Assembly (NCBI GenBank): GCA_918797485.1
Contig: CAKKNE010000004.1
Location: 3,162,001 to 3,226,000 of the forward strand
Reading direction: 5' to 3'
Origin: Pelagomonas calceolata
Taxonomy: Eukaryota; Sar; Pelagophyceae; Pelagomonadales; Pelagomonadaceae
DNA: 64,000 nt
The translations under genes and the position numbers were made by a program. Below the pieces are notes generated by a model, which searched no databases, was not told the origin of the DNA, and saw nothing but the letters and a program-made list of their open reading frames with translations. Numbering within the stretch: the first letter of the stretch is position 1; the number at the start of each line of letters is the position of its first letter. Positions 16,700 to 64,000 of the stretch are shown here, in pieces.

Positions 16700-17815
16700 A
16701 TGGTTGTGATCCTAGGCGACGGCACGGTCGTCGCGGACGACGATCCGCGCGCCCGCCTGCGCCGGGCTCGCCAACAGTTGCCCGACAGCCGCCTGAAATA
16801 TGCTCTGCTGGCGGTGGCGCTCGCAGCCGCGTACAGCTTCGTAAACGCGCCGGCGTCGGAGGCCGCCGGAGGAAAGGTCCCGGCCATGAATCGCGCGCCG
16901 AAAGACCACTGGCTCCACCTGTACTACTCGCCGTTCCTGGTGCGCGACCTCTCGACGTCCTCGGCGCACCAAGATCATAGCGTCCTCGGCCGCGTAAAGC
17001 ACCTGTTCCGCCCGGGGTTGGGCAAGGACACGACGCTGGATAGTAAGGGCCGCGAGGTCGATTACGGCGGCGCCGACGGCTCCGCCTTCGAAGAGATCGA
17101 CATCGAGGACCCGGACTCCGTCGTCGACAGTGCACAAATCAGACTTTGGCACCCGACTCACTGGTTGATTTGCGCACAGGTCGTCGGGACGCGCTGCGCG
17201 TCGACCAAGTTCGCGCTCTCCGTCTACTTCTGCGGCGCCGCCACCGCGAACGGCGACGAACTCAATACCTGGAACGGGTGGGCCGGCGGCCTCGCGGCTC
17301 TCCGGGAGACGCTCGAGTCGATGCACATGCTGTCGAGGAAGGGAGGCGTCCACCCCGCCTTCGTCTACGAGCTCTCCCTCGGCCAGAAGGAGCGGTCGGA
17401 CCCGGCGCTCGAGCACGTTTGGACAATTGTGGCCCAGCCCGACGGAACCTACATGTGGCTGCAGTCCTATATTCAGCAGTATACGCTCCAGAAGTGGATG
17501 AAGGAGACGCTACGCCGCGGTGAGCAGTATCTTACCTACGAGCAATTGGTGGCGAAGCTCGACAAGTACCAAGAATTACGCGCCGCCGCGGCGACGGGCT
17601 GGACCGCACGGGCGAACACGCTGTACAAGGAGCTCTTTTGGGTCGACGTCAGGGAGAATGGGGACGTCCGCTTCTCGGCCGCGAACGCCATCGAGGACCT
17701 CTGGTGGCAGATCCGCTGCAAGTATCCGACAGCCAAAACGCCCCCGCCGCGAGGCCCCGGTCCCCGCGCGGGCGAGTCGCGAGGGCCGGATACGAGTAGC
17801 GGGGACCGGTCCTAA
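16700..17815 (+). CDS. Hypothetical single-pass membrane protein
   Basis: Exons 16700-17119 and 17180-17815 give 351 aa. A helix YALLAVALAAAYSFVNAP near residues 33-51 anchors the protein; the rest is soluble with conserved-looking HLYYSPFLVRDLS, LSVYFCGAATANGDE, VYELSLGQKER and TYMWLQSYIQQYTLQKWM. A Pro/Arg-rich tail follows. I recognise no family. The intron is an introner element of 60 nt without stops, so an unspliced message would be translated with 20 extra residues. It is convergent with the PARP gene (34 bp between stops). Confidence 0.7.
   Translation: MVVILGDGTVVADDDPRARLRRARQQLPDSRLKYALLAVALAAAYSFVNAPASEAAGGKVPAMNRAPKDHWLHLYYSPFLVRDLSTSSAHQDHSVLGRVKHLFRPGLGKDTTLDSKGREVDYGGADGSAFEEIDIEDPDSVVDSAQIRLWHPTHWLICAQVVGTRCASTKFALSVYFCGAATANGDELNTWNGWAGGLAALRETLESMHMLSRKGGVHPAFVYELSLGQKERSDPALEHVWTIVAQPDGTYMWLQSYIQQYTLQKWMKETLRRGEQYLTYEQLVAKLDKYQELRAAAATGWTARANTLYKELFWVDVRENGDVRFSAANAIEDLWWQIRCKYPTAKTPPPRGPGPRAGESRGPDTSSGDRS
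17120..17179 (+). mobile_element. Introner element 1 (intron, in-frame)
   Basis: Element 17128-17179 (52 bp; ends CAGTGCACAAATCA / TGATTTGCGCACAG), flanked by 8-bp duplications GTCGTCGA/GTCGTCGG. Using the GT of the duplicated target as donor gives a 60-nt intron that keeps the frame; the GTGCAC donor inside the element would give 50 nt and break it. Confidence 0.8.
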
Positions 17816-17849
17816 CTCTGTCGTGTTGAATACACAAGTTGTTACCCTC

Positions 17850-19100
17850 TCAGGCGTCGTCACTCTTCTTCCTCGGACTCTTCCGCTTCGTCGTGGCACG
17901 CTTCTTGGCAGGCTTCTTCGCGGCCGGCTTGCGCGCGCGCGGCGGCTTGGGCGCCCGCCGCGGCACGGCGGCGGGCATCCCGGGGATGCCCGCGAGCAGC
18001 GACGGCGGCAGCCCCGCGAGCGCCGCCGCGAAGCGCCCGCCGCCGCCGCCGCCGTAGTCGCGCTTATATTCAATCACGTACTCGGGGTAGACTTGCGCGT
18101 TGTCGAAGACGCCGTACATGGACCCTTGCGACGCGCAGTCGTCGACCGTGTCGGGGTTGTTCGACACCGAGTCGTTCAGACGGCCCGATCCCCCAATAGC
18201 CGGCGGCCGCCGCAGGCCCGGCTGGCCGCGGCCGCACTCGCCGAGCAGCACGCGACACACCAACATCTTGAGCGCGTCCTGCGGCCGCGCGGCCGTGCCC
18301 GCGTGGCGGTGCCGCACCAGCGCGCTGTGGTCGGGCATGCGGCAGTACTGGTCCGAGTAGCTCGACTGGTCCGCGAAGTAGGCGCAGGCGCCCATGGCGC
18401 CCGTGATCTGCGACAGTCTAAAATCCACGTTCTCGTCCAGTATGCAGTCGATCGTCGACGGCGCCGCGCCGTGGAAGAGGTAGCGCTCTCTACAAGGATT
18501 CGCGTCGGGCAAACAGACGGGGTTCTCGGCCTCGTTGAGCACGCCGGGCAGCACGTCGGACCGCCAGACGCGGTCCTCGTCGCTCGACGACGCGCGGCGG
18601 GCCATGGCCTCGCGCCGCGCCGCGTAGGGCGCCCAGAGGTGGTCATTCACACAACGCTTGATGGACGAGATGTTCGCGTCGGGCAGGCCGCGTGATTGTA
18701 ATCTTGCAGCGACCGACTCGTACTCGTCCGAGCCCGGCGTCAGTTCCACCAATAACTTCTCGTCGACGCCGGCGTCGTCAGGTAAACGCTTGCCGTCGCC
18801 GTCGCGCCGCCAGTAGACGGGACGCTTCGCGCGCTTGGCGTCGCCCGTTTTCTTTTGTAAAGAGGCGACCTGCTGCGCGAGCTGCTGTTTCTCGGCCAGT
18901 AACGATTTGAGGAGCTTGGCCTGGGCGCCCTCGGACAGGTCCGCGGCGTCGTCGAGGATCTGGACCTCCGAGTCCTGGCTGTCCGGCAATGCGGGCGCGG
19001 GCGCGCCACCGACGATCTCGACCTCGTCGTCGCTCTCCGGCGGCGCTTGGGCGTTGTTGGCGGCCTCCTCGTCGCTGTCGAGGATCTCGATGCACTCCAT
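17850..19100 (-). CDS. PARP-domain protein, probable mono-ADP-ribosyltransferase
   Basis: 416 aa. The acidic N-terminus (MECIEILDSDEEAANN, SDDEVEIV) includes SUMO-interaction-like patches. A coiled coil (about 55-85) follows, then the PARP catalytic domain (about 190-350). The NAD-binding His is in YLFHGAA (about 210) and the Tyr in ACAYFADQSSYSDQY (about 241). The third catalytic position, Glu in poly-ADP-ribosylating enzymes, aligns with Met in GSMYGVFDNAQVYPEY, so I expect mono-ADP-ribosyl transfer or altered activity. The C-terminus is a Lys/Arg/Pro tail resembling a nuclear or histone-H1-like tail. Nuclear location is inferred. Confidence 0.85.
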   Translation of the reverse strand: MECIEILDSDEEAANNAQAPPESDDEVEIVGGAPAPALPDSQDSEVQILDDAADLSEGAQAKLLKSLLAEKQQLAQQVASLQKKTGDAKRAKRPVYWRRDGDGKRLPDDAGVDEKLLVELTPGSDEYESVAARLQSRGLPDANISSIKRCVNDHLWAPYAARREAMARRASSSDEDRVWRSDVLPGVLNEAENPVCLPDANPCRERYLFHGAAPSTIDCILDENVDFRLSQITGAMGACAYFADQSSYSDQYCRMPDHSALVRHRHAGTAARPQDALKMLVCRVLLGECGRGQPGLRRPPAIGGSGRLNDSVSNNPDTVDDCASQGSMYGVFDNAQVYPEYVIEYKRDYGGGGGGRFAAALAGLPPSLLAGIPGMPAAVPRRAPKPPRARKPAAKKPAKKRATTKRKSPRKKSDDA

Positions 19101-19561
19101 GTTTCCTTCTGCGCCGCGGCGGGTCGATGCGGTATCGGTCCGAGGTTGCTTTAGGAGCGGCTACGGCGTGCGCGCGCGCTTTTTTGTCTTGTCCGGTCTT
19201 AAGGCAATACGACAGGCTGCGCCACGTGCCGCCGGCGGGCCGCGTAGAGAGTTATGCGCTCCAAAACACCGGCAGCGGCCACAAATCGCGTGGCTAGCGT
19301 CCTGTAAAGACACTAGCAAGCGGCAGATCCGAAATAGGGTTGACTTGAAAAACACTCGGAGGCGTATAGAAAAGCAAAAGAAGACTCCTCAGCAAATACA
19401 AGCCGCTGTCGTCCTCATCATCTCACATCTTGCCAAGTGAGAGCCAGCTCCACACGCGGTAGCCGGCATCGGCGCGCTTGTGATCGTTTGCAACGCGTCG
19501 CAGCTTCAACTCATCCATCCGTGCGAGTTTGCAACAGGTGGCGCTGAACGAGCCCTCTAAA
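19101..19561. other. Divergent promoter region
   Basis: Between PARP and the small plastid membrane protein; holds motif copy 4. Confidence 0.5.
19293..19317 (-). promoter_or_regulatory. Palindromic intergenic motif, copy 4
   Basis: Reverse copy, GCTAGCGTCCTGTAAA then GACACTAGC, 192 bp from the PARP start and 244 bp from the 19562 start. Confidence 0.5.
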
Positions 19562-20008
19562 ATGAAGCTTGCTACCACAGTCCTCTGCTGCTTGGCCACC
19601 GTGCACGCCTTCACGCGACCAAACGTGCGCCGCGCGCCGACCGTGCGACGACAAGCTGTCGACGTGCGCGCTCTCCCTTTCTACACCGTGGCCGAGACGG
19701 GCGCCGGCGCCGACGACCCGTTCTTGCTGTCGCTGGCCGGCGCGTCGATCGGGCTCTTCATCTTCGTAGTCGGTGGCGCGGCGTACCTTACCTTTCAGGA
19801 GCAGCAGTCCAAGAAGAGCATCGAGGAGGAGGACACGAAGCCGCGGCTCCCGACGCTCGCCGAGCTCGAGGCCGAGGGCGTGCGTGACGAGGCGGCGCTC
19901 ATGAACGCGGCAGACATGCCGGCCGCGACGAACCGCAACGAGCGGCGCCAGAACAAGAAGCTCCTCAAGAAGCGCGTCGAGCCGCAGCAGGACCGGGCGC
20001 GGTTCTAG
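19562..20008 (+). CDS. Small plastid-targeted membrane protein, unknown
   Basis: 148 aa from the ATG at 19562. A signal peptide ends VHAFTRP, the Ala-Phe junction typical of bipartite plastid presequences in algae with secondary plastids, followed by a basic transit-like stretch. One transmembrane helix (SLAGASIGLFIFVVGGAAYL, about 58-77) leads to a charged soluble tail (PRLPTLAELEAEGVRDEAAL) ending with Lys/Arg-rich sequence. The layout fits a thylakoid or envelope accessory protein. No family recognised. Confidence 0.75.
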   Translation: MKLATTVLCCLATVHAFTRPNVRRAPTVRRQAVDVRALPFYTVAETGAGADDPFLLSLAGASIGLFIFVVGGAAYLTFQEQQSKKSIEEEDTKPRLPTLAELEAEGVRDEAALMNAADMPAATNRNERRQNKKLLKKRVEPQQDRARF

Positions 20009-20038
20009 CACTTGTAACAGAATTAGTCAGAACAACAA

Positions 20039-20662
20039 CTAGGTGAGCCCAAGCCCGGGGATCGACCGCGCCGGCGGCGGCACGCAGCGCTTGCAGCGCC
20101 GCGACGTCGTCTGCCAGCAGACCTTCGGCGAGCAGTCGCAACAGACGCAGCGCCCGCACGCCCGGCAGTGGTGGCGCCGGTAGTACGTCGTGAACTTGCG
20201 CCGACACAATTGACACGCGGGTGCGTCTTTGTCAGGCGTCCAGATCGGGGGTGCCTTGGCGGCCTCGTACCGCTTCACGAGTTCGGGGTCAGGGGGCTCG
20301 ACGGCGCGGAGCCGGGCCGTCGCGTCGCTGCGCCGCCGCCAGAGATCGGCGGCGGGCGTGTAATACCGCGACACGCGCCCCGCGGCGAGCCAGTCACGCC
20401 GCGGCACGCCGTGCGCCTCAAGATATGCGGCGAACGCTGCGTTGTCGGATGCCGTTTCGCACCCGTCGAGCCGCTCCGACCGCACGAAACTGATGCCCGC
20501 TCCTAGTGCGCGGTGCACTCCGGCACAGGAGATGCAGAGCGAGACGTTGTGCGTCGCGCAGAGCCAGCGGTCGTGGGCGCAGGCGGCGCCGCAGTCAAAG
20601 CAGCAGGCGTCGTCGAGCGCTGCCGCCGGCGCGGCTGACGGCTGGGCAGCATCTCTGGACAT
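20039..20662 (-). CDS. ArfGAP-FYVE zinc-finger protein
   Basis: 207 aa from the ATG at 20662. The N-terminal ArfGAP zinc finger reads CFDCGAACAHDRWLC then CISCAGVHRALGAGISFVRS; the C-x2-C-x(n)-C-x2-C pattern and the following VHR-LG block are those of Arf GTPase activators. The C-terminal FYVE finger has the signature RRHHCRACGRCVCCDCS, with earlier CQLCRRKF and a final CKRC; the RRHHCR motif binds PI3P in known FYVE domains. The combination predicts a GAP for small Arf GTPases on endosomes. The catalytic Arg of ArfGAPs aligns with VHRALG. It ends 30 bp from the previous plus-strand gene. Confidence 0.88.
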   Translation of the reverse strand: MSRDAAQPSAAPAAALDDACCFDCGAACAHDRWLCATHNVSLCISCAGVHRALGAGISFVRSERLDGCETASDNAAFAAYLEAHGVPRRDWLAAGRVSRYYTPAADLWRRRSDATARLRAVEPPDPELVKRYEAAKAPPIWTPDKDAPACQLCRRKFTTYYRRHHCRACGRCVCCDCSPKVCWQTTSRRCKRCVPPPARSIPGLGLT

Positions 20663-21069
20663 CGCGTCTGTTCTGGCTCGCTCGCGGCAAGCGCCGCGCC
20701 GCTCGCCTGATAGACACCCTGCCTCTGCACCTGTAGACACAGTGGCTCCGCTGGACCCTCAGGGCTCGCGCACGCTTATGAAACGCTGCTGGTCCTCACA
20801 AATGGTGGCAATCAGCGTGGTCACACGTGTTTTTTGGGCACTTTGCGCCAGCAAAAATCCCACAAAACCCGAGATCGCAGGGGCTTGAACGCAAACGTAG
20901 GTCTTGAGATCAGCTTTTTGTATAGCTGCAGCCATCAATCGTTGCGGCAAGCATCAATCGTATAGCTGCAAGCCATCAATCGTCGCATTGCTGCGCCGCT
21001 TGTGCTTGCTTCGCCTGCACTCACAGCTCGCCGCTGCATCAATCCATTGCACACAAGCGCAATCCTGCG
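20663..21069. other. Divergent promoter region with short repeats
   Basis: Between ArfGAP-FYVE and FabG. It contains the imperfect direct repeat at 20921-20986. Confidence 0.5.
20921..20986. repeat. Imperfect direct repeat, 40-bp offset
   Basis: TATAGCTGCAGCCATCAATC at 20921 recurs at 20961 with one inserted A; a third partial GCATCAATCG lies between. Confidence 0.8.
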
Positions 21070-21924
21070 ATGTCGCGATTCCTGCTCGCCCTCATGCTCT
21101 CCGCGACGACGGCGCTGCGCGTCGTCACGCGCCGCACGCTCACGCCGCGCCGTGCTGCAATGACCATGAAGGAGGGCGCGACGACGGTGGTCGTCACGGG
21201 CGCGTCCAGAGGCATCGGCGCGGCCATCGCCAAGGATTTAGGAGCGCAGGGCTGCAACGTCGTCGTCAACTACGCGGCGTCCGAGGGACCGGCCCTGGAA
21301 GTTGTGGAAGCCATCAAGGCTTCGGGCGGCGACGCCATTGCCATAAAAGCGAACATGGCGGAGTTGGACGACATCAAGGCCATGTTCAAACAAGTAGCGT
21401 CCGAGTTCGGGGGCTGTGATGTGCTGGTGAACAACGCGGGCATCACTAAAGATGGGTTGGCCATGCGCATGAAGCCGACGCAGTGGCAGGACGTGATTGA
21501 CGTCAATTTGAGCGGCGTCTTCTACTGCTCGCAGCAGGCCTTCAACCAGATGGCGAAGAAGCGCAAGGGCCGCATCATCAACATGTCGTCGGTCGTCGGG
21601 TTGTTCGGCAACCCGGGCCAGGCGAACTACGCGTCGGCCAAAGGTGGAGTGTGCGGCCTGACCATGTCGAACGCCAAGGAGTTCGCCGCTCGGGGCGTCA
21701 CCGTGAATGCGGTCTGCCCCGGATTTATTGGTACGGAGATGGCCAACGAGTTAGGAGAGGACATGCTCGAGAAGGTCAAGAGCGCGATCCCGCTGGGGCG
21801 CCTGGGCGCCGCCGAGGAGGTCGCTGGTTTAGTGAGATACCTCGCGCTCGACGAGTCGGCGGGCTACATCACGGGCCACTCGCTGACCATCGACGGCGGC
21901 ATCGCGATCGGCGCGGGCTTCTAG
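21070..21924 (+). CDS. fabG: 3-oxoacyl-[ACP] reductase FabG, plastid type
   Basis: 284-aa short-chain dehydrogenase that reduces 3-oxoacyl-ACP with NADPH in type II (plastid) fatty-acid synthesis. The nucleotide-binding TGASRGIG is at about 43-50, NNAG near 123, the catalytic Ser in INMSSVVG, and the Tyr/Lys pair in YASAKGG. IPLGRLGAAEEVA and YITGHSLTIDGG are typical FabG C-terminal blocks. The N-terminus (MSRFLLALMLSATTALRVVT) is a hydrophobic leader followed by an Arg-rich stretch, consistent with import into a secondary plastid. Confidence 0.95.
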   Translation: MSRFLLALMLSATTALRVVTRRTLTPRRAAMTMKEGATTVVVTGASRGIGAAIAKDLGAQGCNVVVNYAASEGPALEVVEAIKASGGDAIAIKANMAELDDIKAMFKQVASEFGGCDVLVNNAGITKDGLAMRMKPTQWQDVIDVNLSGVFYCSQQAFNQMAKKRKGRIINMSSVVGLFGNPGQANYASAKGGVCGLTMSNAKEFAARGVTVNAVCPGFIGTEMANELGEDMLEKVKSAIPLGRLGAAEEVAGLVRYLALDESAGYITGHSLTIDGGIAIGAGF

Positions 21925-22429
21925 GCTGGTTCTCGGGTAAGGGCGCGTTAAGATCCTCTTCGTCGGCGGCGTAGCGCTCCGGTGGGGCGGGGAGCGGTGG
22001 TGGTTTTTCTCGTGGCGGCCGCGCGCCCGCGGTTTTCTTCCTTTCGTGTCCTCCGTCGCAGGTATCGGACTTGCCGGCGTAGGTCTCCGGTGCGGCGGGA
22101 AGGAGCGTTACCGCGCCTCACGGATGGAGGCGAGCAGGGCTCGTAAAATCGACGCCACTCCGCGCGCACATTGGCGCGACCGCGGAGCTCTCTTGCCCGG
22201 GCAGAGTTGAGGAGACGCACATCGGAGACGAACCGAGGAGAGTGAGCCGGGTCAGCCGACGCGCGCTCGGTCCAAAAAAACAGAGCTAAAAACTCGGGCT
22301 TCCTCGTTCGTAAACGCGCGCGGCGGGCGAGAAAGGACGCCCTGAACGCGTATACAGCGACGCGAAGCCACCGGCAACGCGAGACAGCGCGAAACCGCCG
22401 AAGAAAAAAAGCGCCGCGACTCGGGCGCG
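21925..22429. other. Intergenic, nothing recognised
   Basis: 505 bp between two plus-strand genes; no motif copy, repeat or RNA gene seen. Confidence 0.5.
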
Positions 22430-23333
22430 ATGGCTGCCGACGAGAGCCACGACGGGCCGCCGGCGAAGCGCCCGAACCTGACCGTCGACTCGTCGAGCGA
22501 CGACGAGGCGCCCACGCCGACGGAGCTGGGCTTCGACGGCGACACGCACAAGTGCTCTTCGTGCCACGTCGTGAAGAAGGTTCCCGAGGACTTCGTGAAT
22601 CCCAAAACAAAACGCGTCGGCAAGACGTGCGCCGAGTGCATCACGCGCGCGCGCTGGAACGTGAGCCCCGCACTCCCCGCGGCGAAGACGTCGGGCCGGA
22701 CGCGTCGACGGCAAGCTGAGCCCGCAGAGAAACCCAAGTCCTCGTCGTCGAAGCTGCCGTGCCGCCGCGGGTGCGGCCGCTCCTTCAAGAACGCGGGTGC
22801 GCGCACGAAGCACGAGGCGGCGTGCGCGCACGGGCGCGACACGGAGGAGGCGGAAGATGCGAACGACGACTTGATTGGACAGAAGGTGATCAACGTCTTT
22901 CCCGGCGCGGGAGGCTTCCGCATGGGCTTCGTCCGCGAGCGGGTCCTCCCTGTGTGGAAATCAACCTGTGTATCGGCTGCGACCACGCCATCAAGCAGGC
23001 GTCGCGTCGATGGCATGGAGGTCGACGCCGACTCGACGGCGCCGTGAAATTTTGATTTCTACACAGGTTCCTCCGCCGGCCGGCTCGGTGCGGATCGGCA
23101 ACTACATGTGCGTCTGGCACGATCACACGTTCACGGAGCACCAGGCCGGGAAGATTCGAAACAAGCTGCTGCGGGAGTGGGAGTGGGCTGAGGTTCCTCC
23201 GGGCGAGATATCTCCGACTTTCCGAGAGCTCTACAAGGAACATGTCGGCGACCGATACGGCGACGCAGACGGCTCTTCGCGCGGACGCACCGTTGCAACG
23301 GCTCTGTTCGGGGATCCCAACGCCCTAGTGTAA
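22430..23333 (+). CDS. Zinc-finger-like protein, unknown
   Basis: Exons 22430-22942 and 23067-23333 give about 259 aa. A disordered acidic N-terminus precedes a four-Cys module (CSSCHVVKKVPEDF then TCAECITRAR) and a C2H2-like finger (CRRGCGRSFKNAGARTKHEA with CAH). The second exon encodes GNYMCVWHDHTFTEHQ and LLREWEWAEVPPGEISPTF. The zinc-ligand patterns are visible; function is unknown, nucleic-acid binding being one possibility. The intron is an introner element. Either donor (22943 or 22952) keeps the frame, so three residues at the junction are uncertain. Confidence 0.65.
22943..23066 (+). mobile_element. Introner element 2 (intron)
   Basis: Element 22950-23066 (117 bp), ends CTGTGTGGAAATCAA / TTGATTTCTACACAG, flanked by GGTCCTCC/GTTCCTCC (7 of 8). 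It contains the internal inverted pair CACGCCATC...GATGGCATGG shared with elements 4 and 6. In this gene it lies in orientation A. Confidence 0.85.
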
Positions 23334-23342
23334 ACATATATC

Positions 23343-25358: not shown

Positions 25359-25776
25359 GGCTGCTCTTTTTGTTTTGCGCTCTCTGGGTGCAGCGCTCTC
25401 TGGGTGCAAGCCTGTTTTTTGTCTTAGTGATGGACGCAACGGCCTTGAACTCCACGCAAGCAGTGCGCACGTGGGCTAGCTTTGCAAATCCGCCCGAATC
25501 ACACAGCACTGCCTGCAGGCCGATTTTATCGCTCGATGTGCCTCTCAGCCCCTGGATTAGCTAGCGGCGTAAGACACTAGCAGACCCTCTATTTGACCGG
25601 AAACGTTGAGAGACGCGTCGGATAGATCACCTGTTCGCGTACTGGGTGCAGAGACGGTCCTCAAGAGGACAGCTGATGACATGCATGCATGACAAGCGGC
25701 ACATGCAGCAGCCAATCCGTACGGATGAGTTGAAACAGCAGTATGCTTCAAAAGTGACGCCATCGATGCGATAATC
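25359..25776. other. Divergent promoter region, TSR1/NHA
   Basis: 418 bp; holds motif copy 5. Confidence 0.5.
25560..25581 (-). promoter_or_regulatory. Palindromic intergenic motif, copy 5
   Basis: GCTAGCGGCGTAAGACAC then TAGC, centred almost midway between the TSR1 start (201 bp) and the NHA start (195 bp). Confidence 0.5.
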
Positions 25777-27269
25777 ATGTGTAAAAGTTCAACAGATAAC
25801 GAGGACTCTGCAAAAAATGACAGCACACAGCTCCCTGCAGCCCTGTGGGAAGCCTTGTGCGTCGGACTCGTCGTCCTCACGCTCTGGCTCTCGATCGGCG
25901 CCGCCGCAGCCCCAAGAGGCCCGGTCTTCGCGCTCGAGTGCGTCTTCGTCGCCGGCGTGCTCGGCGGCCGGCTCGTGTCGCTTATCGCGAAGAAGACCGA
26001 GGTCCCGCTGCCGCCCCTGGTAGGGATGCTCGGCGCCGGTATTCTTTTGAGGAACGTGCCCTACCTGCGGACGTACGTGGGCGAGGCCGTCGACGCGGGC
26101 AGCTCGTCGGCGCTGCGGACGTGCGCCCTCGCGCTCATTTTAGCAAGAGCGGGCCTAGGCCTGGACGCCGCCGCGCTGAAGCGCCTGCGGTGGGCCGCGG
26201 CGCGCCTCGCGGCCGTGCCCTGCCTCGTCGAGGCCGGGGTCGTCGCTGTGATAGCGTCGCGGCCGTTTGTTTTTGACTTCCCGGCGGGGTGGGCGTGTCT
26301 CCTGGGCTTTGTGGTCGCCGCAGTGTCGCCGGCGGTCGTCGTGCCATCGCTCCTAGCATTGAGGGATGCGGGCTACGGCACAGCGACGGGCATCCCGACG
26401 CTGGTGGTCGCGGCCGCGGCGCTGGACGACGTGCTTTCTTTAGCAGGTTTCGGGATCTGCCTGCCCTTCGCGGTATCGTCGGCGGCGCGCCAGGGGGTCC
26501 TCCCGTCGACGGCCTGGGCCGCGGCGGTGCGCGCGCCGGTTGAAATTGTTGCTGGATTATTTGGCGCGTGGCTCGGGTCGCTCGTGCTGCGCCGGTTCGT
26601 CGTCGAACGGCGGCCGTCCGCGCTGCGGGCCGCCTCAGCTTTAATGCTCGTGGCGCTGGCACTGACCTTCTCGCTGAAGGCGCTCGGCTTTTCGGGCGCG
26701 GCGGCGCTCGCGGCTGTATGGAAATCAAATTTCAGGCGCCCGACGCCATCGACACTCCGCAACTCACTGGTTGATTGCCACACAGGCTCGCGGCGCTCGC
26801 GCTCGCGTTTCTGGCAGGATCTTCATATAAGGCCGCCGGGGGCGTCCTCGGCGAGCTGTGGTCGAGCGTGGCCCAGCCGCTCCTCTTCTCGCTGCTGGGG
26901 GCGGCCGTGGACCTGGATGTAATAAGGGGAAGGGACGCGGGCCTCGGCGTCGCTTTGATCGTGATCTCGGGCGCCTTCCGCTTCGCGGCGACGTCGAACG
27001 CCGTGCGCGGCTTTTCGTTGAAGCCGAAGGAGCGGTTGTTCGTGGCGCTCGCCTGGCTGCCCAAGGCGACGGTGCAGGCCGCCGTCGGGGCCGTCGCGCT
27101 CGACGCGGCGGACTCGTCCGGCGAGAAGGAAAGGGCGCGTGTCGTGCTGACCGTGGCCGTCCTGGCTATTATATTGACTGCACCGGTCGGCGCAATCGCT
27201 ATTTCTGTAGCGGGGCCGCGGCTGTTGACGAAGGATGAGGTCGCCGAGGAGGCGCCGTCGCGGGTTTGA
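25777..27269 (+). CDS. Na+/H+ antiporter, NHA/SLC9B-like (CPA family)
   Basis: Exons 25777-26705 and 26786-27269 give 470 aa. There are about twelve hydrophobic segments. The blocks AAVSPAVVVPSLLALRDAGYGTATGIPTL-type and AAALDDVLSLAGF are hallmarks of NHA antiporters, the Asp-Asp pair being the cation site; WLPKATVQAAVGAVAL near the C-terminus is the matching late helix. It should exchange Na+ or Li+ for protons across a membrane, perhaps a vacuole or plasma membrane. The intron lies in the middle of a helix; only the GC-AG boundary restores the frame. Confidence 0.88.
26706..26785 (+). mobile_element. Introner element 3 (GC-AG intron)
   Basis: Element 26714-26785 (72 bp), ends CTGTATGGAAATCAA / TTGATTGCCACACAG, flanked by perfect 8-bp duplications GCTCGCGG. 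Exon phases match only if the intron begins at the duplicated GC; the GTATGG donor inside the element fails. Confidence 0.88.
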
Positions 27270-27372
27270 TGTTTTGTTTCATAAGTCGTTGTTCATATAG
27301 TACTCGTCTTACTGTACCGACTACACACCACACGAAAACCTAAAGAACCGTATCGCGCGGTTTAAGCTGATG

Positions 27373-27395: not shown

Positions 27396-27412
27396 TCCAG
27401 CCTCTCACAGCC

Positions 27413-32064: not shown

Positions 32065-34086
32065 TCAGGGCTCCACGACGACGACCTCGAGCGCCGTCGC
32101 GGCGACACAGCTCGACAGCGAGAGCTGGTCCCGCCCCACAACGCACGCGCCCGAGCTGTGCACGAGCCGGCCCGCGTCGAGGACGAACGCCGTCGCGCGC
32201 GCCGCATTTCCACTTTCGAGCGCGTCGCAGCGGCCGACCGTCAGCCCCGCGGCGCCCCCCGGTCTCAAACATCTAAAGTCAGAAGAAAACCGCGGGTCGA
32301 GGCTCAAGATTTCAACACCTTTCGCCGTGTTCGCGAGTAGCGCGAAGAGCTGGTCCGGCGCATGGCGCACGGGCTTGGAGAAGACGAGGCGGTTTTGGGT
32401 ACCGCTCGCCGCGAGGGCGTCCTGCTCCGACTCCTGGACGCACTCCCTCAGCACGACCCGTTCACCGTCGATCGTGGCGCAGCGCCCGTCTCCGCTAACT
32501 AATTGAGCTGGTTGTGGAGGTTCCGAAGAAGGGAACCAGGCCGGCCAGGCGCAGCGGCCCGGTGGATCGATCTTGAGGTCGCCCAGCGGCTTGCCGCCGA
32601 AGGGGCCCAGGCTAGGCATGCGCCGGTCGCGGAACCGGCAGTCGTGGAACAGCAACACGCAGATGAGGTAGTTGCCGACCGAAGGACGTGAAGAACGCAC
32701 GCTCGGGTTGCCCTGATATGACGCCAGTCGCCCGCAGTCGGCGCCGAAGTGCGACCGCACGACCGTCTGAGCTAACCTAACCTGCGCCAGATCCGCGAAG
32801 CCCCGGTGCTGGTCGCCGCAGTCCTCCTTATCGCCGCAGATCTTCTTCGCCAGTAAGTGCTCCGTGTGGCCCGCGTGCGTCTTGAAGCGCTTGCCTCTAC
32901 TACCGGAACAGCAGTACTCTTCGACTATATCTCTTGCTATCAGATCGGCCTCTTCTGGTAAACATCGTAGCTTCTCGACGACCGCTCCCCGGATAGCCTC
33001 ATAGTCGCAGGGCGCCTCGGGCCGCTTCTTCTCCTCGTTCGACCGGCCGTGGAACGGCGACAGGCCGTACGGGTTGCCGAAGCACCAGGTCCTCCCGGTA
33101 TTGTCCATATCTATGAGTCGTTCGACGAGGTCACCGGACGGTGCGACCATGACGTGGTCGTTCGCCGTGAGCATCCAGACGTCATTGACGGATACTTTAT
33201 CTCTTGAAAAGGATTGGATGGGCGGCACGGGCCGGAGCCAGGCCGAGTCGCTCCGCGCGAAGCAGAAGTATGCATACTCGAAGTTGCGCAATGCAGAATA
33301 CCGTAAAGCACCCCGATAGGCCTGGTAGCGGTTCCACCACTGGGACCTGTGTGGAAATCAATCAGTGAGTAAGGTTATCCTGAGAAGAATTGCGTGGACC
33401 TTCGTGAACCTCCACGCCATCGAGCCGACGCGGTCACGGGCGCAACGTCGCGTCGATGGCGTGGGGCGCCCGACATTTGATTTCCACACAGACTGGGACC
33501 AGAGCGGCCGGTCGAAGGCTCGCAGTAGCGCGAGGGAGCGCTCCTCGATGGACAGCGAGCGCCACGGCAGCAGGGTGCCGTTTCTCAGGCCCGCGTCGCT
33601 CTCGGTATCGCCCTCGTCTTTACCTGCTACGAACCACGAGACTTGTACTGGCTTTAAGGTTTGTAACATCGGTCTCAGAATAGAATCCGGCAGGTGTCCG
33701 ATTATCGACGGCACGCCGCGCGCGCCCGAGATCTTCCGGTGGCCCTCGCTGCCCTCGGACGCCTTGACGCTTCTGTCTAATCTCAAAAACACGTCGACGG
33801 CGGCCCCCTGCTTCGCGAGGCCCCCGATCAAATTCCTTCTGCATAATTCGTAGACGCGCGGCAGGAACAGCGACCGCGTCTCTCCCACAATCAGCACGGC
33901 CGCGCGCGGCGGGATTGGTTTTTGGATTGGCGTTGACGCCGGTGCTTCGAAGCGTGCGATGGCCATCGAGCACAGTTGCGTCACGCCGCCTAACAGTGCA
34001 AGGATGCAGACCAGCTGGCAATTGCTCTTGACGAAGCGCGCCGGCGGCGAGCGCTTGCGCGTGCTTTTGGGGAGGCAGGGCGCCAT
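32065..34086 (-). CDS. Type II membrane protein, glycosyltransferase-like with lectin-like C-terminus
   Basis: Exons 34086-33500 and 33346-32065 give 622 aa. A short basic cytosolic start precedes one helix (LVCILALLGGVTQLCSMAIA), a Golgi type II layout. The lumenal part starts AAVLIVGETRSLFLPRVYELC and contains DVFLRLD, SQWWNRYQAYRG and NDVWMLTANDHVMVAP, a pattern reminiscent of algal transferases with a Rossmann-like core; no family is assigned. The C-terminal 180 residues have DGRCATIDGERVVLREC and SGACVVGRDQLSLSSC, recalling ricin-type lectin repeats. The intron is an introner element. Confidence 0.65.
33347..33499 (-). mobile_element. Introner element 4 (intron)
   Basis: Element 33347-33491 (145 bp) with perfect ends CTGTGTGGAAATCAA / TTGATTTCCACACAG and perfect 8-bp duplications (ACTGGGAC on the plus strand). 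In the gene sense the intron starts at the duplicated GTCCCAGT and removes 153 nt; the internal GTGTGG donor would shift the frame. Confidence 0.92.
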
Positions 34087-52459: not shown

Positions 52460-53438
52460 ATGAAGGCTGCCGTTTTAGCCCTCGCCCTCTCCCTGACGCC
52501 GGTCGCCGCCGAAGCATGGGCTCCTAGACCGATGCCGTCCCTGCACAAGAGTGCACCGATGCGTGCTGAGGCTGCCGTCGCGGTTACGGGCGGCTCAGAC
52601 GCGCGCGCCGGCCCGGCGGGTGTCTACGACGCCGCCGTGACGCTCGGAGCTGGCAAGGCCGCCACGCCGATCTCCAAGCTCATCCCGCTCAGCTTCCTGA
52701 GCGGTCCGCACCAGTGAATGAACCAAATTGTCGCGGCGCGAATCACTGCACCCGACTCACTGTTCGATAAACGCAGGCGCGCACATCGCCTTGGGTGCGA
52801 TGCTGGCGGTGTCGGTGGGCGGCAGCGTCCCCGGCATCAAGGCCGCGAACCCGGGCGTGCAAAGGGCTTTGCTCGGCGTCATGGGTTTACCTATGGGTTT
52901 ACTGATGGTCCTCGGCGCGGGCGGCGAACTCGTGACGGGCAACATGGCCGTCTGCACCGCGGCTTATAAAGCGGGCAAGGCTTCTCTGTCTGATTTATGC
53001 AGAAACCTCGGCACGGTCTACCTCGGCAATTTTGTTGGATCGTTAGCCGTGGCAGCTCTAGGAGCCTGGGCCTCGACGGGCGTGACGGGCGGCGCCATCG
53101 CCGTCGCCACGGGCAAGGTGAGCGGCACCTTCGGCGCGGCCTTCGCCAGAGGTGTATTGTGCAACTGGCTCGTGTGCATGGCCGTCTGGATGGCCACGTC
53201 GCAGAAGGATTTGATCAGCAAGGCCGCGGCCGTCTTCTTCCCGATCTCGGGCTTCGTCGCCATGGGTCTCGATCACTCGGTCGCGAACATGTTCCTCATC
53301 CCGTTCGGCATCTTCTGCGGCGCGGAGATCACGTGGGCGGACATGGTCATGAAGAACCTGGTGCCCGTCACGCTGGGCAACTTGGTCGGCGGCGCGGTCT
53401 TCGTGGCCGCGGCGTACCACTCGGCCTACGGCAAGTAG
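52460..53438 (+). CDS. NAR1: Formate/nitrite transporter, plastid NAR1-like
   Basis: Exons 52460-52703 and 52777-53438 give 301 aa. A signal peptide (MKAAVLALALSLTPVAAEAW) ending before APRPMPSL fits plastid targeting. The FNT channel fold follows with six hydrophobic helices and family motifs SGAHIALGAMLAVSVGG, GAGGELVTGNMAV, LGNFVGSLAVA, RGVLCNWLVCMAVWMA, GLDHSVANMFLIPFGI and VTLGNLVGGAVFVAAAYHS. In algae NAR1 moves nitrite into the plastid for nitrite reductase. Splicing rebuilds S-F-L-S-G-A-H-I-A-L-G exactly as in the family, which fixes the intron borders. Alternative: formate transport. Confidence 0.93.
52704..52776 (+). mobile_element. Introner element 5 (intron, eroded)
   Basis: Element 52712-52776 (65 bp) with decayed ends CAGTGAATGAACCAA / TTCGATAAACGCAG and internal CCCGACTCACTG shared with elements 1 and 6. 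Duplications are GTCCGCAC/GCGCGCAC (6 of 8). The donor is the duplicated GT; this alone restores the FNT motif. Confidence 0.82.
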
Positions 53439-53672
53439 ATCTCGCGCGGCACTGTACATACTCCTGATCATACGCCCGCTGAGGGGGTTCCCTCCTTCTA
53501 AGTCACATATAAGTAACCGAGGATAGATGAAGTGGACTCACATATTAATCGAGACAGAGCGGGGGCGAGGCGCGGCCCATCGACCGCGCGTGGCCCATCA
53601 GCTATTGGGGCAGGAAAACTTGGTGGCGGGGCGCGTCCATGGCAGACGCGGCCGGGCCGTCTCCGTACGCGC

Positions 53673-55824: not shown

Positions 55825-56195
55825 TTTCGTTTGTTCGGCTGGCCGCCTCGTTCGCCCGCGGAAGCAATTGGTGCGCCACAGGCTGCAAAGGCAAAGCTGC
55901 AAACCTGCCGCGGCGGCTGGCGTTACGCGTCGTTTCGTTCGCCCGCACCGATCAACGGCGTGTCGAGAGCTTCTCTACGAGCCGCGGTATCAAGCGGCGC
56001 GCTCGAACGCTGCGTGCTGCCAAACCAAAAGCTGGGGCTCAGCTCTGGCAGCGAGTTTTTGGCACCAGCTTGCGCGCGCGAGAACGCGTAAAGGGGAGCA
56101 GGCTAGCCATATAGCTGCCGCGACGCGGCTGTAACGGCAGAAGTTGAACCGCGGAGGCACCTCGCAGCGTTTGCAGTGATTGCAGAGAGAGCATC
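55825..56195. other. Divergent promoter region
   Basis: 371 bp between NAA20 and OXA1; nothing recognised. Confidence 0.5.
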
Positions 56196-57422: not shown

Positions 57423-57562
57423 CACGGGTCTGGGAGCACGCGGCGGCGGCGTGCTTCCTCTCTCCGACGGCGTCGCCACGGTCGCGCCCAACGTAGTAGT
57501 ATATTTAACGATAGCATGTCTTACTTGTTCGAGCGATGGAGCTGTGCACCTGAACAGGCAGG

Positions 57563-59143: not shown

Positions 59144-59549
59144 CTTTTTTCTTTTCCGCGCCGGCGACGCCTGCTTTCTCGCTGGCTGGCTGCGCTAGGC
59201 AGCTGTTGCCTTGGTTGCTTGCAACAGATGCCTCTCGCTGCAAAGGCTCGTAGTCGCGCGGTTTAGTGCGTCGTGGAGCAGCCAGAAATGAGTCGAGGAC
59301 GCGTGTAACCGTGTGTCCCGTGCTGGAACGCGCCCGCCAAAGTTGGATCGAGCTGACCAGTCACATCCCGCACGTTTTAGTGATGAGGCGTCAATACCCC
59401 CTATTGACAATGACGGAGGGCGAGGAGAGCTGCCTGGGGGTGGTGGATTTTTGCGCTGAGAGCATCGCCCGCCGCGCGGAGAGCAGAAAGTGGGCGGGCA
59501 GCTTTAATGGAGGCAGCCGACGAGGCGCAAGGACCGGGAACCAGCACTA
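59144..59549. other. Divergent promoter region
   Basis: 406 bp between the ATP-grasp gene and the glycosidase-like gene; nothing recognised. Confidence 0.5.
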
Positions 59550-61760
59550 ATGCGCCATCTCCTGCTCGCATGCATCGCCGGGGCAGCCCGCGGCAGCAGG
59601 CTAGCCATCGATTTCAGCACCGACGAGGCGTTTAGCATCACAATCGATGGCACACAGTGGCTCCACGGCGGCGGCGCGAGCCTAAGACAACAACGGCTCC
59701 GACCCAGCGGTCCGTGGCGACCGATCAAAGGCGCCGACGCGCGAGGAAAGTACAAGGGCCGCGCGCGGCGCTACGGCGCGCTCGAGGCGAGCTACGCTCT
59801 ATATGACAACGCCGTCGTCTTCACGCAGCGGTTCCCCGACGGCGCCACCGTGTCGCCGCGCGGCGTCGAGGGGTTGGCCAGCGAGTGGCCCGTGCTCGGG
59901 CCGAGCGCGCAACGGCTCGGCGTCTTGACCTTTGGCGGCCGGTTCATGGAGACGAGCCGTGCGACGAAGTGGACCGGCGCGGGCTCGGTCGAGAGCGGCG
60001 CCTACGGCGGGCCTTTCGTGCTCTTCGACGGGAAAGGCGACGCGCTGGTCGTCTCGGCTGCCACGGAGTTTGCAGCACACTCGCACGCAGCCTCAACGCA
60101 AAACGCTTCGGCCGTCGCCTTCGGCGTGCTCGGGTCCGTGACCAAAATCCCCAGAGGCTTCGCCGTGGCGACGGTGCTCACGCTGGGTCAGGAAGGTATT
60201 ACATCAGCCGTGCGAACCCACGGCCGGGCCCTCCTGGCCGGCACGGTCCGCCCGCCCGACTACGCGACGCGTTATTTAGGCTACTCGACGGACAACGGCG
60301 CCTACTATTACTACAATCCAAGCAAGGACTACGGGACGACGCTGCGGGCGGTCCGCGCCTACGCCCAACGCGAGCGGATCCCCTACCGCTACGCTCTCCT
60401 GGATAGCTGGTGGTATGAAAAAGGCTCGGGCGACGGAGTCCGCAACTGGTCCTGCACCGCGCAAGCGTTCCCGCAAGGGTGTCAGGGTCTCTCGGAAGAG
60501 CTCGATTGGAGGTTCATGCTACATAATCGCCAATGGAGCTCCGACAACGTCTACCGGGGCGCCTATGACTTTGCGGTGGAGCCGCCGCTGGCGCTGCCCC
60601 TCGAGCAGCGGTTCTGGGACGACCTCATGCGCAACGCGTCCGACTGGGGTATGATTGTCTACGAGCAGGACTGGCTCTACACGGAGTTCCTCGGTTTGAA
60701 TGCCACTCTTCTGCAGTCGGCGACGGGCGCGAGAAAGTGGCTCACGCAAATGTCGACCGCGGCGTCCCGCGTGGGCGTGACGGTCCAGTACTGCATGGAG
60801 ATGGCCCGTCTCGTTCTCCAGAGCGCGACCCTGCCAGCCGTGACGCAGATCCGCGCCTCCGACGACTACAACCCCGCGGGCGATTCTGGAAATTGCACGC
60901 CGCCAGCGTGCAACCCGCCCGTACAAGTAGATACCTACTACATCGGCACGACGTCTTTATTAGCTTGGGCGCTGGACCTAGCGCCGTCGAAGGACAGCTT
61001 CTGGTCGACGTCGGCCCAACCGGGCAATCCTTACGGTGATGTGGCCGAGCGCTACCCCGCGATGCAGGCCGCCGTCGCCGCGCTGTCGCGGGGACCGGTC
61101 CAGGTCTCGGACGGCGTCGGGTACTCCGATCGCGAGCTGATTATGCGGACCTGCGACGAGGCGGGGCGTCTTCTTCAGCCGTCGCGGCCCGCGACGGCGT
61201 TAGACGCTGCCTTCCACCGCTCTGCGGGAGTCGGCGACGGTCCACTCGCCAGATTTCCAAACGTTTTGCCCATCACGGCCACGCATACGCGCATCGACGG
61301 CTGGAAATGGGCCCATATTCTTGTGATCAACCTCGAGGAGCCGTTTATGCTCCTGCCGGCGCATCTCAGACCAACCGACCTGGGCGCCGGCGAGCACGTC
61401 GCCTACTCTCTCGCGGCCGCGTCGACGGCGTCGCAGCGACGTGGTGATGCCTTGTCCGTGCTCGGAGATTTTCGGGACGGCATAGCCATCCCGGCCTGCG
61501 GCGCGGGCGACTTCCGCCTCTACCACGTCGCGCCGCGGCTCGCGAACGGCTGGGCCTACCTCGGCGAGCTCTCAAAGTTCGTCCCCGTCGCCGAGGCCCG
61601 CACGCGGTCTTTGCGGTTCGACGTCAATAGCGTGTCTGTCTCGCTCTCTGGCGCAGCGAGCGAGGAAGTTGTTGTCACGTTCCTCGCGCCGAACGGGACC
61701 GTGGTCTCCGCGGAGTGTGTGTTGTCGGCCGCAGGGCTCGGGGAGGTGATTGTGGGTTAA
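59550..61760 (+). CDS. Secreted glycoside-hydrolase-like protein
   Basis: 736 aa with a signal peptide (MRHLLLACIAGAARGSRLAI). A beta-rich N-terminal domain (about 20-220) precedes a probable TIM barrel with RYLGYSTDNGAYYYYNPSKD, YRYALLDSWWYEKG, WGMIVYEQDWLYTEF, VTVQYCMEMARLVLQS and IRASDDYNPAGDSG; Asp residues at strand ends (LLDSWW, YEQDW, SDDY) could be catalytic. The C-terminal part is again beta-rich, the three-part plan of alpha-galactosidase and GH31/36-type enzymes. I cannot assign a family or substrate. Six-plus potential glycosylation sites (N-x-S/T) suit a secreted protein. Confidence 0.7.
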   Translation: MRHLLLACIAGAARGSRLAIDFSTDEAFSITIDGTQWLHGGGASLRQQRLRPSGPWRPIKGADARGKYKGRARRYGALEASYALYDNAVVFTQRFPDGATVSPRGVEGLASEWPVLGPSAQRLGVLTFGGRFMETSRATKWTGAGSVESGAYGGPFVLFDGKGDALVVSAATEFAAHSHAASTQNASAVAFGVLGSVTKIPRGFAVATVLTLGQEGITSAVRTHGRALLAGTVRPPDYATRYLGYSTDNGAYYYYNPSKDYGTTLRAVRAYAQRERIPYRYALLDSWWYEKGSGDGVRNWSCTAQAFPQGCQGLSEELDWRFMLHNRQWSSDNVYRGAYDFAVEPPLALPLEQRFWDDLMRNASDWGMIVYEQDWLYTEFLGLNATLLQSATGARKWLTQMSTAASRVGVTVQYCMEMARLVLQSATLPAVTQIRASDDYNPAGDSGNCTPPACNPPVQVDTYYIGTTSLLAWALDLAPSKDSFWSTSAQPGNPYGDVAERYPAMQAAVAALSRGPVQVSDGVGYSDRELIMRTCDEAGRLLQPSRPATALDAAFHRSAGVGDGPLARFPNVLPITATHTRIDGWKWAHILVINLEEPFMLLPAHLRPTDLGAGEHVAYSLAAASTASQRRGDALSVLGDFRDGIAIPACGAGDFRLYHVAPRLANGWAYLGELSKFVPVAEARTRSLRFDVNSVSVSLSGAASEEVVVTFLAPNGTVVSAECVLSAAGLGEVIVG

Positions 61761-61789
61761 GTATGTCATGTGCGAGTACAACAGAGACA

Positions 61790-62749
61790 TTACAATTCAT
61801 CAGAGTAGTGATTGTGCCAGAACGCCGGCCGCCACGCGGTGTCGAATTCGTGGTGGAAGAATACAACGTCGGCGCTGGCGAGGTGCGGGCAGCCGCGGCT
61901 CCGGAAGTAACAATAGGGCAGGACCGTGACGTCCTTCACCGTCGTTGCCCTCGCCCAGGTCGTCGCGTCGTCGGCTCGCTCGCCCGCCGCCTCGCGCAGC
62001 GCGCGGTTCGACGAAGCGCCCGCGTACGCTTGTAATGCGTCGCCGAGCATGGCCGGGCCGGTCAGGTCGAGCACCGGGATATGGCCGCCCGCGCAGTACG
62101 CGCTACGCTCGCCCGCGCATGCCTCGGCGTCCCCAGAAAACGCCGCGATGCGATCCGCGGCGAGCAAGGCGGCGTGCAACGGGAAACCGTGGCCCTTCTC
62201 GCAGGCGAACGCCCAATTCAGCGGCGCCGAGGGGTCGTCGGCGACCGAGCCCTCCCACGCGAAGACGCAGCCGTCGATCTCGAGTTCGGAGAGAGGATCG
62301 TCGATGCAGACCGCATCCGCGTCGAGCCACCAACCTCCGTAAGTGTGGACAAGCAGCAGCCGCGCGAGGTCCGTGCGCAGGACGAAATGTTTCGAGAACG
62401 GTGGTCTCCGAAGAGCATCAATGGCGGTCGCGATTCTCGCGTCGAGCGCCGCCGCCTCGTCGAGAAACGCGTCTAGCGCCGCGTCGTCGTACCAGATCGT
62501 CGCGTAGCCGGGGTTCTGTACCGCGCAGGAGACGACGTTGCGCCGCGTGCGACCGAGTCGCGCGCCGCCGCCGGCCGCCGTCAGCGCCGCGGCGGAGAAG
62601 TTGTGGGACCGGTGTAGTACTCGCAGGTCGTCAATGATGCGCGGCGGCGCGTCGTGCCAGTGCGGCACGCCCGTCGCAGCGGTCTTGCGGTGGTCTAGGT
62701 ACTGCTGCCCATGAATGACAGTGATTGTGCACATCAATTGCCATATCAT
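61790..62749 (-). CDS. GT32-like glycosyltransferase (DXD)
   Basis: 319 aa. The sugar-nucleotide site is FVLRTDLARLLLVHTYGGWW followed by LDADAVCIDDP, the arrangement RxDxxRxxxLxxYGGxYxDxD that defines OCH1-like and other GT32 enzymes; the DAD is the DXD metal-binding motif. Additional family-like parts are NPGYATIWYDDAALDAFLDE, LNWAFACEKGHGFPLHAAL and FFHHEFDTAWRP near the end. A weak hydrophobic start (MIWQLMCTITVIHG) may be a signal anchor. Golgi lumenal mannosyl- or galactosyl-transfer is likely. Confidence 0.85.
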   Translation of the reverse strand: MIWQLMCTITVIHGQQYLDHRKTAATGVPHWHDAPPRIIDDLRVLHRSHNFSAAALTAAGGGARLGRTRRNVVSCAVQNPGYATIWYDDAALDAFLDEAAALDARIATAIDALRRPPFSKHFVLRTDLARLLLVHTYGGWWLDADAVCIDDPLSELEIDGCVFAWEGSVADDPSAPLNWAFACEKGHGFPLHAALLAADRIAAFSGDAEACAGERSAYCAGGHIPVLDLTGPAMLGDALQAYAGASSNRALREAAGERADDATTWARATTVKDVTVLPYCYFRSRGCPHLASADVVFFHHEFDTAWRPAFWHNHYSDEL

Positions 62750-62855
62750 CCTGGAGTCATCGAACCCTTACGCATGGATCGCAGACGAAGGATTTGGGCT
62801 GCCCGATGCAGTGACGGCGTGTTTAGGCCACCAAAAAAGCAGGCTTGTCGGAATT

Positions 62856-62879
62856 CCTAGTGTCTTACCGGCCGCTAGC
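62856..62879 (+). promoter_or_regulatory. Palindromic intergenic motif, copy 11
   Basis: CCTAGTGTCTTACCGG then CCGCTAGC, 106 bp upstream of the GT32-like start at 62749. Confidence 0.5.
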
Positions 62880-62974
62880 AAAGCCGTGCACAAACTATAT
62901 TCGCGCCAAACTTCAGGCAATTTTAACTGGCCCTAGCCGAATGAGAAAATTGTGCGCGGACATAACAAATCACA

Positions 62975-64000
62975 TCAATAAAGGTCGACGCTCCGCCCCG
63001 CGAAAGCCGCGTCGACGGCCTCGACGAGCTCGCCGAGGATCGCCTCGACCAGCCCGGGCGAAAAGCAGAAGTGCGTGCAGTCGCGGCCGCCCGGGTGCAA
63101 GTCCCAGAGCGGCTGCGTGAGCTCGTGGAGCCGGAGCATGCGCAGCCGCGGCGTCGGTCCGCCGGTGCGGTTCCCCTGGGCCGCGCGGAAGGCGTCCCAG
63201 GCGACGGCGTTGCGCCAGCCCGTGTCGAGCTCCGCCTCGGGGTGCTGCCGTCCCGCGCCGTGGCAGGACGCGTTGTGGAACGACGCCGGCACGCAGTTGT
63301 AGTGCGCGATGGGGCGCGCGCTGGATTTCATCCCAGATGCGAAGTAGCCGCCCGTCGTCGTCGCCTGTGTGGAAATCAAAATTTTACGGCGCGTTCCTCC
63401 ACGCCATCGACGCGACGCCTGCTCGATGGCGTGGCGATGCCGGTTCCGCTCGACCGAGCCACGACGGCCGCGTCATGCACCCGACGCACTGGTTGATTTC
63501 CACACAGATCGTCGCGAAGTGCTGGGCCGTCGTTTCCGCGTACAGGGCGACCGCGCCCGCGTCGACGGCCTCCATGAGGACGGAAAAGATGACCTTGAGG
63601 TGCGCCGCCAGCTCCGCGTGGTCGTGGTGGTGCAGCCCCATGTTCGCCACGAAGACAGTTTGGGAAGAGGCCGCGCCCACCACGCCCCGCTGCCACGCCT
63701 CGTTTTCGGTGGACGGTATTATAGGAGCCCCCGCTGGAAGCAGGCTTCGACGAGCGACGCCCAACTCATCGAAGGGACTGAAGCCGCAGTACTCTTGGCT
63801 CGTCTCGACGATCTGCCGCGCCACGGAGTCGCCCATCCACCGGACCAGAGTAATGTCGCGGCGCGCCCGCATCTCACGATACGCTCCGCAACGATTGGTC
63901 GCGTTGGGCCCGGGGAGCCAGCTCGGCCACGCGTAGGTCGACTTACGCGCCCGCAGCGCGGGCCAGCCCTCGTGCGGCCGGTTCGGTACCGCGTTCACGA
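62975..64000 (-). CDS. TBL/PC-esterase-like (GDS...DxxH) acyl esterase, 5' partial
   Basis: The 5' end is beyond the right edge. Exons 64000-63516 and 63364-62975. VRWMGDSVARQIVE is the GDS block with the nucleophilic Ser, and RDCTHFCFSPGLVEAI near the C-terminus is the DxxH block (Asp and His of the triad) of trichome-birefringence-like and Cas1p-type polysaccharide O-acetyltransferases/esterases. NMGLHHHDH and RLRMLRLHELTQPLWDLHPG lie between. It probably acetylates or deacetylates a secreted polysaccharide in the Golgi. Splicing the introner element fuses QHF to ATTTGGYF in frame. Confidence 0.82.
63365..63515 (-). mobile_element. Introner element 6 (GC-AG intron)
   Basis: Element 63365-63507 (143 bp), ends CTGTGTGGAAATCAA / TTGATTTCCACACAG, flanked by GTCGTCGC/ATCGTCGC (7 of 8). 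In the gene sense the intron begins GCGACGAT (duplicated target) and ends CACACAG; only this border joins the exons in phase. It is nearly the same sequence as element 2 along most of its length and lies in the same orientation relative to its gene. Confidence 0.88.

Follow-up and report, generated by a model that had tools for sequence, protein, structure and literature searches.

The window analysed here is a 64,000-nucleotide stretch of the genome of the pelagophyte alga Pelagomonas calceolata (contig CAKKNE010000004.1, positions 3,162,001 to 3,226,000), with a G+C content of 62.7%. It contains six predicted introns, each built of one copy of a short direct repeat and a small introner-type element, with the second copy of the repeat on the exon side of the acceptor. 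The introns lie in genes on both strands; the two at 33347 and 63365 belong to minus-strand genes and so have their donors at 33499 and 63515. Below, each copy is named by the first position of its element.

17120..17179, plus strand: intron; donor duplication 17120-17127 (GTCGTCGA) and element 17128-17179; exon-side duplication 17180-17187 (GTCGTCGG)
22943..23066, plus strand: intron; 7-bp donor duplication 22943-22949 (GTCCTCC) and element 22950-23066; exon-side duplication 23067-23074 (GTTCCTCC)
26706..26785, plus strand: intron in a Na+/H+ exchanger-like gene; donor duplication 26706-26713 (GCTCGCGG, GC donor) and element 26714-26785; exon-side duplication 26786-26793
33347..33499, minus strand: intron; donor duplication 33492-33499 (read GTCCCAGT) and element 33347-33491; exon-side duplication 33339-33346
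52704..52776, plus strand: intron in a formate/nitrite transporter gene; donor duplication 52704-52711 (GTCCGCAC) and strongly diverged element 52712-52776; exon-side duplication 52777-52784 (GCGCGCAC)
63365..63515, minus strand: intron; donor duplication 63508-63515 (read GCGACGAT, GC donor) and element 63365-63507; exon-side duplication 63357-63364

The sequence-only reading that preceded this analysis held that the six introns share their ends and are flanked by 8-bp duplications, two of them perfect and three matching at seven of eight positions. Compared with the 15-bp consensus end, the first statement holds for 33347 and 63365 (both ends exact), 26714 (0 or 1 mismatch at each end) and 22950 (0 and 1), and extends to 17128 with 5 and 2 mismatches, but it is loose for 52712. 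The duplications are as described, with 8/8 matches at 26714 and 33347 and 7/8 at 17128, 22950 and 63365; the sixth, at 52712, matches at 6/8. This last duplication and the family-like right part of 52712 (GCACCCGACTCACTG...GCAG) were recognised by eye; the element is too diverged for pair scans and is an old copy of the family, in a gene with a match to PF01226 (E = 6.7e-70). A scan of the window for both ends with an 8-bp repeat gave five matches, compared with means of 0, 0 and 0.05 at three thresholds for 20 shuffled end patterns. No further degenerate members were found within the window at the scan threshold, which also misses 52712.

Copies, ends and duplications across the genome

The genome behind the window comprises 32,445,274 bases in 8 contigs; that of P. 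calceolata RCC100 is described, in the available text of the genome paper, as six nuclear contigs of 32.4 Mb plus one plastid and one mitochondrial contig with 63% G+C (PMC9481584). The exact 15-bp end has 1,562 matches in the genome analysed here (790 forward and 772 reverse), and the reversed control pattern has none. A set of 75 copies with no more than 6 mismatches summed over both ends was collected from the window (4 copies) and from contig C1 (71 copies); the material searched was the window together with twenty stretches of 10 kb and forty of 1.5-3.1 kb, those on C1 being picked for an exact end. The mismatch rule excluded 17128, 52712 and other unpaired ends. The family consists of many near-identical introns in unrelated genes: the homologues of three of the window genes are mutually different, and the formate/nitrite transporter gene is a fourth.

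Among the 75 copies, the flanking 8-mers are identical in 33 and differ at one position in 21, at two in 5, at three in 6 and at four to six in 10, these last having no recognisable duplication. The 54/75 copies with at most one mismatch compare with 0.64% between different copies, which places the resemblance between flanking 8-mers far above chance level, as expected, for these 75 copies rather than genome-wide. The match rate is 0.75-0.89 at positions 1-8 of the duplication, 0.31 and 0.40 just beside it, and lower beyond, with 0.41 at position 13. Terminal inverted repeats together with a target duplication of fixed length, 8 bp, are the marks of a DNA-transposon-type introner.

The elements are 60 to 213 bp long and a 203-bp form recurs; 14/75 measure 200-206 bp, to which the 8-bp duplication is additional. 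Many of the shorter copies seem to derive from the 203-bp form by internal deletion. Beyond the common 15 bp the two ends differ, often with CCAGTG behind one and AATTT behind the other (for example at L067:5321-5523), so that the orientation of an element can be read from the sequences behind the shared 15 bp. Adjacent copies were seen at L067:4992-5177 and 5321-5523, with 143 bp between them, and at L058:7628-7718 and 7789-7991, with 70 bp between them; these short intervening stretches are possibly very small exons produced by two insertions. For eleven near-exact ends that are not part of the 75 copies, a partner with a matching 8-mer was sought. None was found for 8, within a reach limited by locus lengths of mostly 1.5 kb, and 3 (17128 in the window, L071 and L077) have a diverged partner at most 92 bp away. 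Spread in viral contigs was considered and rejected: 43 stretches hold one exact 15-mer each, and looser pairs, judged by eye, lack matching flanking 8-mers.

Donor choice and competing explanations

GT or GC at duplication bases 1-2 is referred to as GY. Across the genome, GY opens the 8-mer before 987 of the 1,562 exact ends (645 GT and 342 GC), and one base further out it is found at only 150/1,562. GT or GC on the other strand, which appears as RC closing the preceding 8-mer, occurs at 1,002/1,562 ends, with GY and RC together at 494. At least one strand carries GY at 1,495/1,562 ends (95.7%), and the 67 ends with neither compare with 206 expected under independence (p = 6e-52, a value that is too small because copies with two exact ends are counted twice).

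Coding strand and frame were assessed with a codon model trained on 80 long open reading frames from the window and the 10-kb stretches (83 chosen, 3 dropped), which scored both flanks of each of the 75 copies on both strands. A coding signal in both flanks and a clear strand were found for 45/75 copies. Within this clear set, the frame continues across an intron that runs from duplication base 1 to the last base of the element in 44/45 copies (p = 3e-20 against 1/3), and all 44 start with GT (31) or GC (13) on the coding strand. GY is present on the coding strand only in 33 of the clear copies, on the antisense strand only in none, on both in 11 and on neither in 1; the antisense rate, 11/45, does not differ from the coding background of 17.1% (p = 0.23). 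Because coding-only copies outnumber antisense-only copies 33 to 0 and the antisense rate sits at background, the need for GY follows the transcribed strand, and the best interpretation of this requirement is selection for splicing. Over the whole set, 72/75 copies have GY on the strand inferred to be coding. Intron phases agree with the codon positions at which GT and GC occur (p = 0.52 and 0.57), and retention of the intron would cause a frame shift or a stop in 41 of the 44 in-frame copies. In the window, a donor at duplication base 1 keeps the frame at 26714, 33347 and 63365, and at 17128 the donor 17120 leaves the frame open for 189 codons before and 211 codons after the junction.

These observations make it very probable, at roughly 94%, that the window introns are copies of one miniature inverted-repeat introner-type DNA element that borrows its 5' splice site from the duplicated target. 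On insertion, an 8-bp target would be duplicated. Read outward, both terminal repeats close with CACACAG, and either end, if downstream, could act as the 3' splice site. Where, on the transcribed strand, the 8-mer opens with GT or GC, the upstream copy would supply the 5' splice site, and removal of that copy together with the element would restore the pre-insertion mRNA exactly. Insertions lacking GT or GC at the right place would be removed by selection, and movement would depend on a transposase supplied elsewhere. The sequence-only reading had likewise placed the donor on the first bases of the upstream duplication and the acceptor at the element's CAG, and frame, coding-strand GY and homologues agree with it; all three point to an intron that takes one splice site from the element and the other from the duplication and leaves the mRNA restored.

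It had also been claimed that a donor inside the element fails in four of the genes and at 17120. This is correct for the element's first GT (CT^GTGTGG), which would add 10 nt and is rejected by frame; at 17128 it would leave only 117 codons open after the junction. The second possible donor, CTGT^GTGG, is a different matter. With it the element would carry both splice sites, the acceptor being CAG, and each insertion would add 12 nt (8 duplicated and 4 of the element), so the frame is kept and the statement that frames alone resolve the splice logic was too strong. In 42/45 copies the second GT/GC of the element has survived at the upstream end, the product meets a stop in only 1/45, the corresponding GC donor at 17128 leaves 215 codons open after the junction, and the same arithmetic, 4 + 8 bp, is given for an Aureococcus sp. 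family in the available part of PMC9860276. A donor at this site, however, gives no reason for coding-strand GY at duplication base 1, found in 44/45 copies against 11/45 on the other strand and 17.1% of coding sites, and the four residues that it would add are absent from homologues in four genes, 22950, 26714, 33347 and 52712, for which it is therefore removed. We consider this explanation very unlikely.

The homologue comparison covered those four genes. For 22950, 5 of 9 homologues were compared and all are without a gap at the junction, P0004 having a ten-residue gap seven residues later. For 26714, 10 of the 120 matches listed were compared; 8 cover the junction and none is gapped there, while P0016 and P0017 do not cover it. 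The homologues P0010-P0013 of the 33347 gene are without a gap at the junction (4/4), and LCIA (9v2a) and the FocA-type formate transporter 3kly align to the 52712 gene with no gap there, LCIA showing a one-residue gap four residues upstream. For 17128 and 63365, the splice assignment is a prediction from frame and family statistics. About 12 residues downstream of its junction, the predicted 26714 protein has 3-5 residues fewer than all eight junction-covering homologues.

Two further explanations were weighed. In favour of the GT/GC excess being a mere target preference of the transposase, unrelated to splicing, GY is frequent at both duplication ends when strands are pooled; the excess nevertheless tracks the coding strand, as the 33 coding-only copies and the background-level antisense rate show, and we judge this explanation to be highly improbable. 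That the copies are ordinary unspliced insertions that break or lengthen genes has a next to negligible probability: the intron is a multiple of three and stop-free in 3/44 in-frame copies, but in the other 41 retention would bring a frame shift or a stop. Even so, the two flanks remain coding and in register, and homologues without the insert argue in the same direction.

Copy 22950 is the only misfit to the unmodified frame rule among the 45 clear copies. With donor 22943 the spliced protein would read RERVPPPAGS, and through this junction the homologues P0002 and P0005 read R(E/S)RVPPPAGS and P0001 reads RERVDPPAGS. The right duplication is GTTCCTCC, whereas the left one, which follows GAGCGG and lies inside the intron, is GTCCTCC, one T fewer. 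The most economical reading is that one T was lost from the intronic left duplication, in which case donor 22943 would be duplication base 1; the intron at 22943, which had been left open before, would then follow the same donor rule.

Several points weigh against a donor borrowed from the duplicated target. Copy 22950 fits only with this presumed one-base loss, and splicing in RNA is itself deduced from sequence. The 67 exact ends with GY on neither strand could be old, intergenic or differently spliced copies. Thirty copies did not enter the clear set; their best frames carry on across the junction in 22, and of the 8 in which they do not, seven have one flank that scores below 2. The eighth, copy 317333 on C1 with flank scores of 4.9 and 18.0, narrowly missed the clear set and has neither GY on the inferred coding strand nor a recognisable duplication; at 549074, also on C1 and one of the 8, GY is likewise absent from the inferred coding strand and no duplication is recognisable. 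Finally, no partner transposase with introner ends was found in three family searches and one protein search.

A separate observation concerns the homologues of the 22950 gene. After GNYM, the P0002 sequence continues as RVICVERH...KFDFHIG before returning to the same exon in a different frame, whereas in the window gene GNYM runs uninterrupted into CVWHD; translation of AAATTTGATTTCCAC from the family's end would give KFDFH. P0002 and P0005 thus look like proteins that contain an unspliced family element after GNYM, at a site empty in the window, a protein-level hint of recent gain.

Splice-site recognition and transposase searches

At the acceptor, CACAG is changed in 0/45 ends, compared with 10/45 upstream ends (p = 0.001). 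The element is oriented one way relative to the gene in 18 copies and the other way in 16, with 11 unclear; because both orientations are used, the inverted repeat supplies the acceptor either way round. A maintained RNA hairpin was rejected: in the paired ends of the 75 copies, 74 changes are one-sided and 1 is two-sided, and there is therefore no sign of pairing being kept. A single full-length copy, folded together with short flanks, does better than its shuffles (z = -4.10; 1/200 shuffles as good).

Donor positions 3-5 hold almost no information beyond GY, and position 6 is G-rich (26/45, p = 0.003 before correction for eight tests). Measured against supply, the use of GT exceeds that of GC 5.4-fold. 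In a 73-copy set, among those copies that have at most 2 differences, a T in the donor faces a C in the exon in 3 cases and the reverse in 0, too few to claim that GC donors turn into GT after insertion. Two candidate genes for the U1 small nuclear RNA (snRNA) were found, with scores of 64.3 and 58, a little under the Rfam cut-off of 69.5.

L066:3442-3613 (C1:553941-554112 of the genome, G000): U1 snRNA gene, better candidate; 5' end AUACUUACCUG
C1:5464782-5464959: second U1 candidate

Complementarity of the donors to U1, out of 7 positions, is 1.48 for GT and 1.54 for GC, compared with 1.45 and 1.58 at random coding sites. One possible reading is that the 5' splice site is set by position and not by U1 pairing: the element itself, through what may be its inverted ends or its inner sequence, would direct the spliceosome to the GT or GC that lies exactly 8 nt before the element end, a distance given by the fixed stagger of the transposase. 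We regard this as rather doubtful; the same picture would arise from selection for exact mRNA restoration if the spliceosome is lax in general, and this is likelier.

Among the transposase searches, that of the genome with PF05699 gave one match, in an element with other ends, the MULE search gave none, and the P-element-like search gave nothing, its control giving no signal either. The PF05699 match lies in a complete-looking hAT-like transposon at L113:3350-7000 (C4, about 4499549-4503199), which has perfect 20-nt inverted ends (CAGGGCAGCAGAAGGGCAAG), a perfect 8-bp duplication (TTGCTCGC) and an open reading frame of 714 amino acids (E = 1.1e-4) that is the sole match to its own protein in a genome search. 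It was rejected as the autonomous partner, its ends being different from those of the introner. The 8-bp target duplication of the introner agrees with hAT, but such duplications are made by other superfamilies too, and hAT ends are of the C/TA-N-N-G type. Because its consensus end is CTGTG, compared with CAGGG in the resident hAT-like element, the introner is not filed as hAT.

Comparison with other introners

The mechanism appears to be that published for Aureococcus, here confirmed and measured in what appears to be a second species. In the work of Huff, Zilberman and Roy (Nature, 2016), the introners of Aureococcus anophagefferens reportedly carry one splice site and take the other from the duplicated target. 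The comparisons that follow reflect the excerpts available of each paper cited. Like the present family, the introners of A. anophagefferens, which belongs to the same class, Pelagophyceae, are short DNA elements that are non-autonomous and bear both terminal inverted repeats and direct repeats (PMC7789003). Their characteristic length is near 210 bp (PMC9481584), comparable to the 200-206 bp plus duplication of 14/75 elements here. Canonical splicing motifs are described for the Aureococcus elements, whereas 13/44 donors here are GC; the same source counts Aureococcus among species with many non-canonical introns (PMC7789003). The P. calceolata genome paper, which very probably describes the genome analysed here, took an intron-length peak of about 210 bp as a mark of introners (PMC9481584); it points to introners, and the ends, duplications and splice logic are described here from sequence. 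A literature search, made without supplements and subscription texts, found no other paper on introners of Pelagomonas.

The use of a splice site from the target duplication recurs in other introner families (PMC9860276). In Aureococcus sp. family 4 (Gozashti et al. 2022, PMC9860276) the duplications are of 8 bp, as here, and its 8 + 4 bp would fit CTGT^GTGG; its donor lies inside the element and four residues are added, an arrangement unsupported for the present element. The introners of Symbiodinium microadriaticum have 4-bp duplications, in contrast to the 8 bp found here (PMC9860276). Amoebophrya introners (PMC7789003) and euglenid nonconventional introns (PMC4770533, PMC6221363) have inverted repeats able to join the intron ends, and the former have direct repeats at their borders, both as here. 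Their direct repeats, however, are of 3-5 nt and their borders largely non-canonical, whereas the present introns have 8-bp repeats and GT/GC...AG borders, with no sign of compensatory pairing in the present element.

These results would extend transposon-driven intron gain with a borrowed splice site to an abundant open-ocean alga with a chromosome-scale genome. Since GT or GC is demanded on the coding strand only, selection can be separated from targeting. Donor recognition is the part worth following, the puzzle being that donor complementarity to U1 does not exceed that of random coding GT or GC sites. Because the new donors share little beyond GT/GC beside a U1 with an ordinary 5' end, the minimal sequence of a 5' splice site becomes directly testable.

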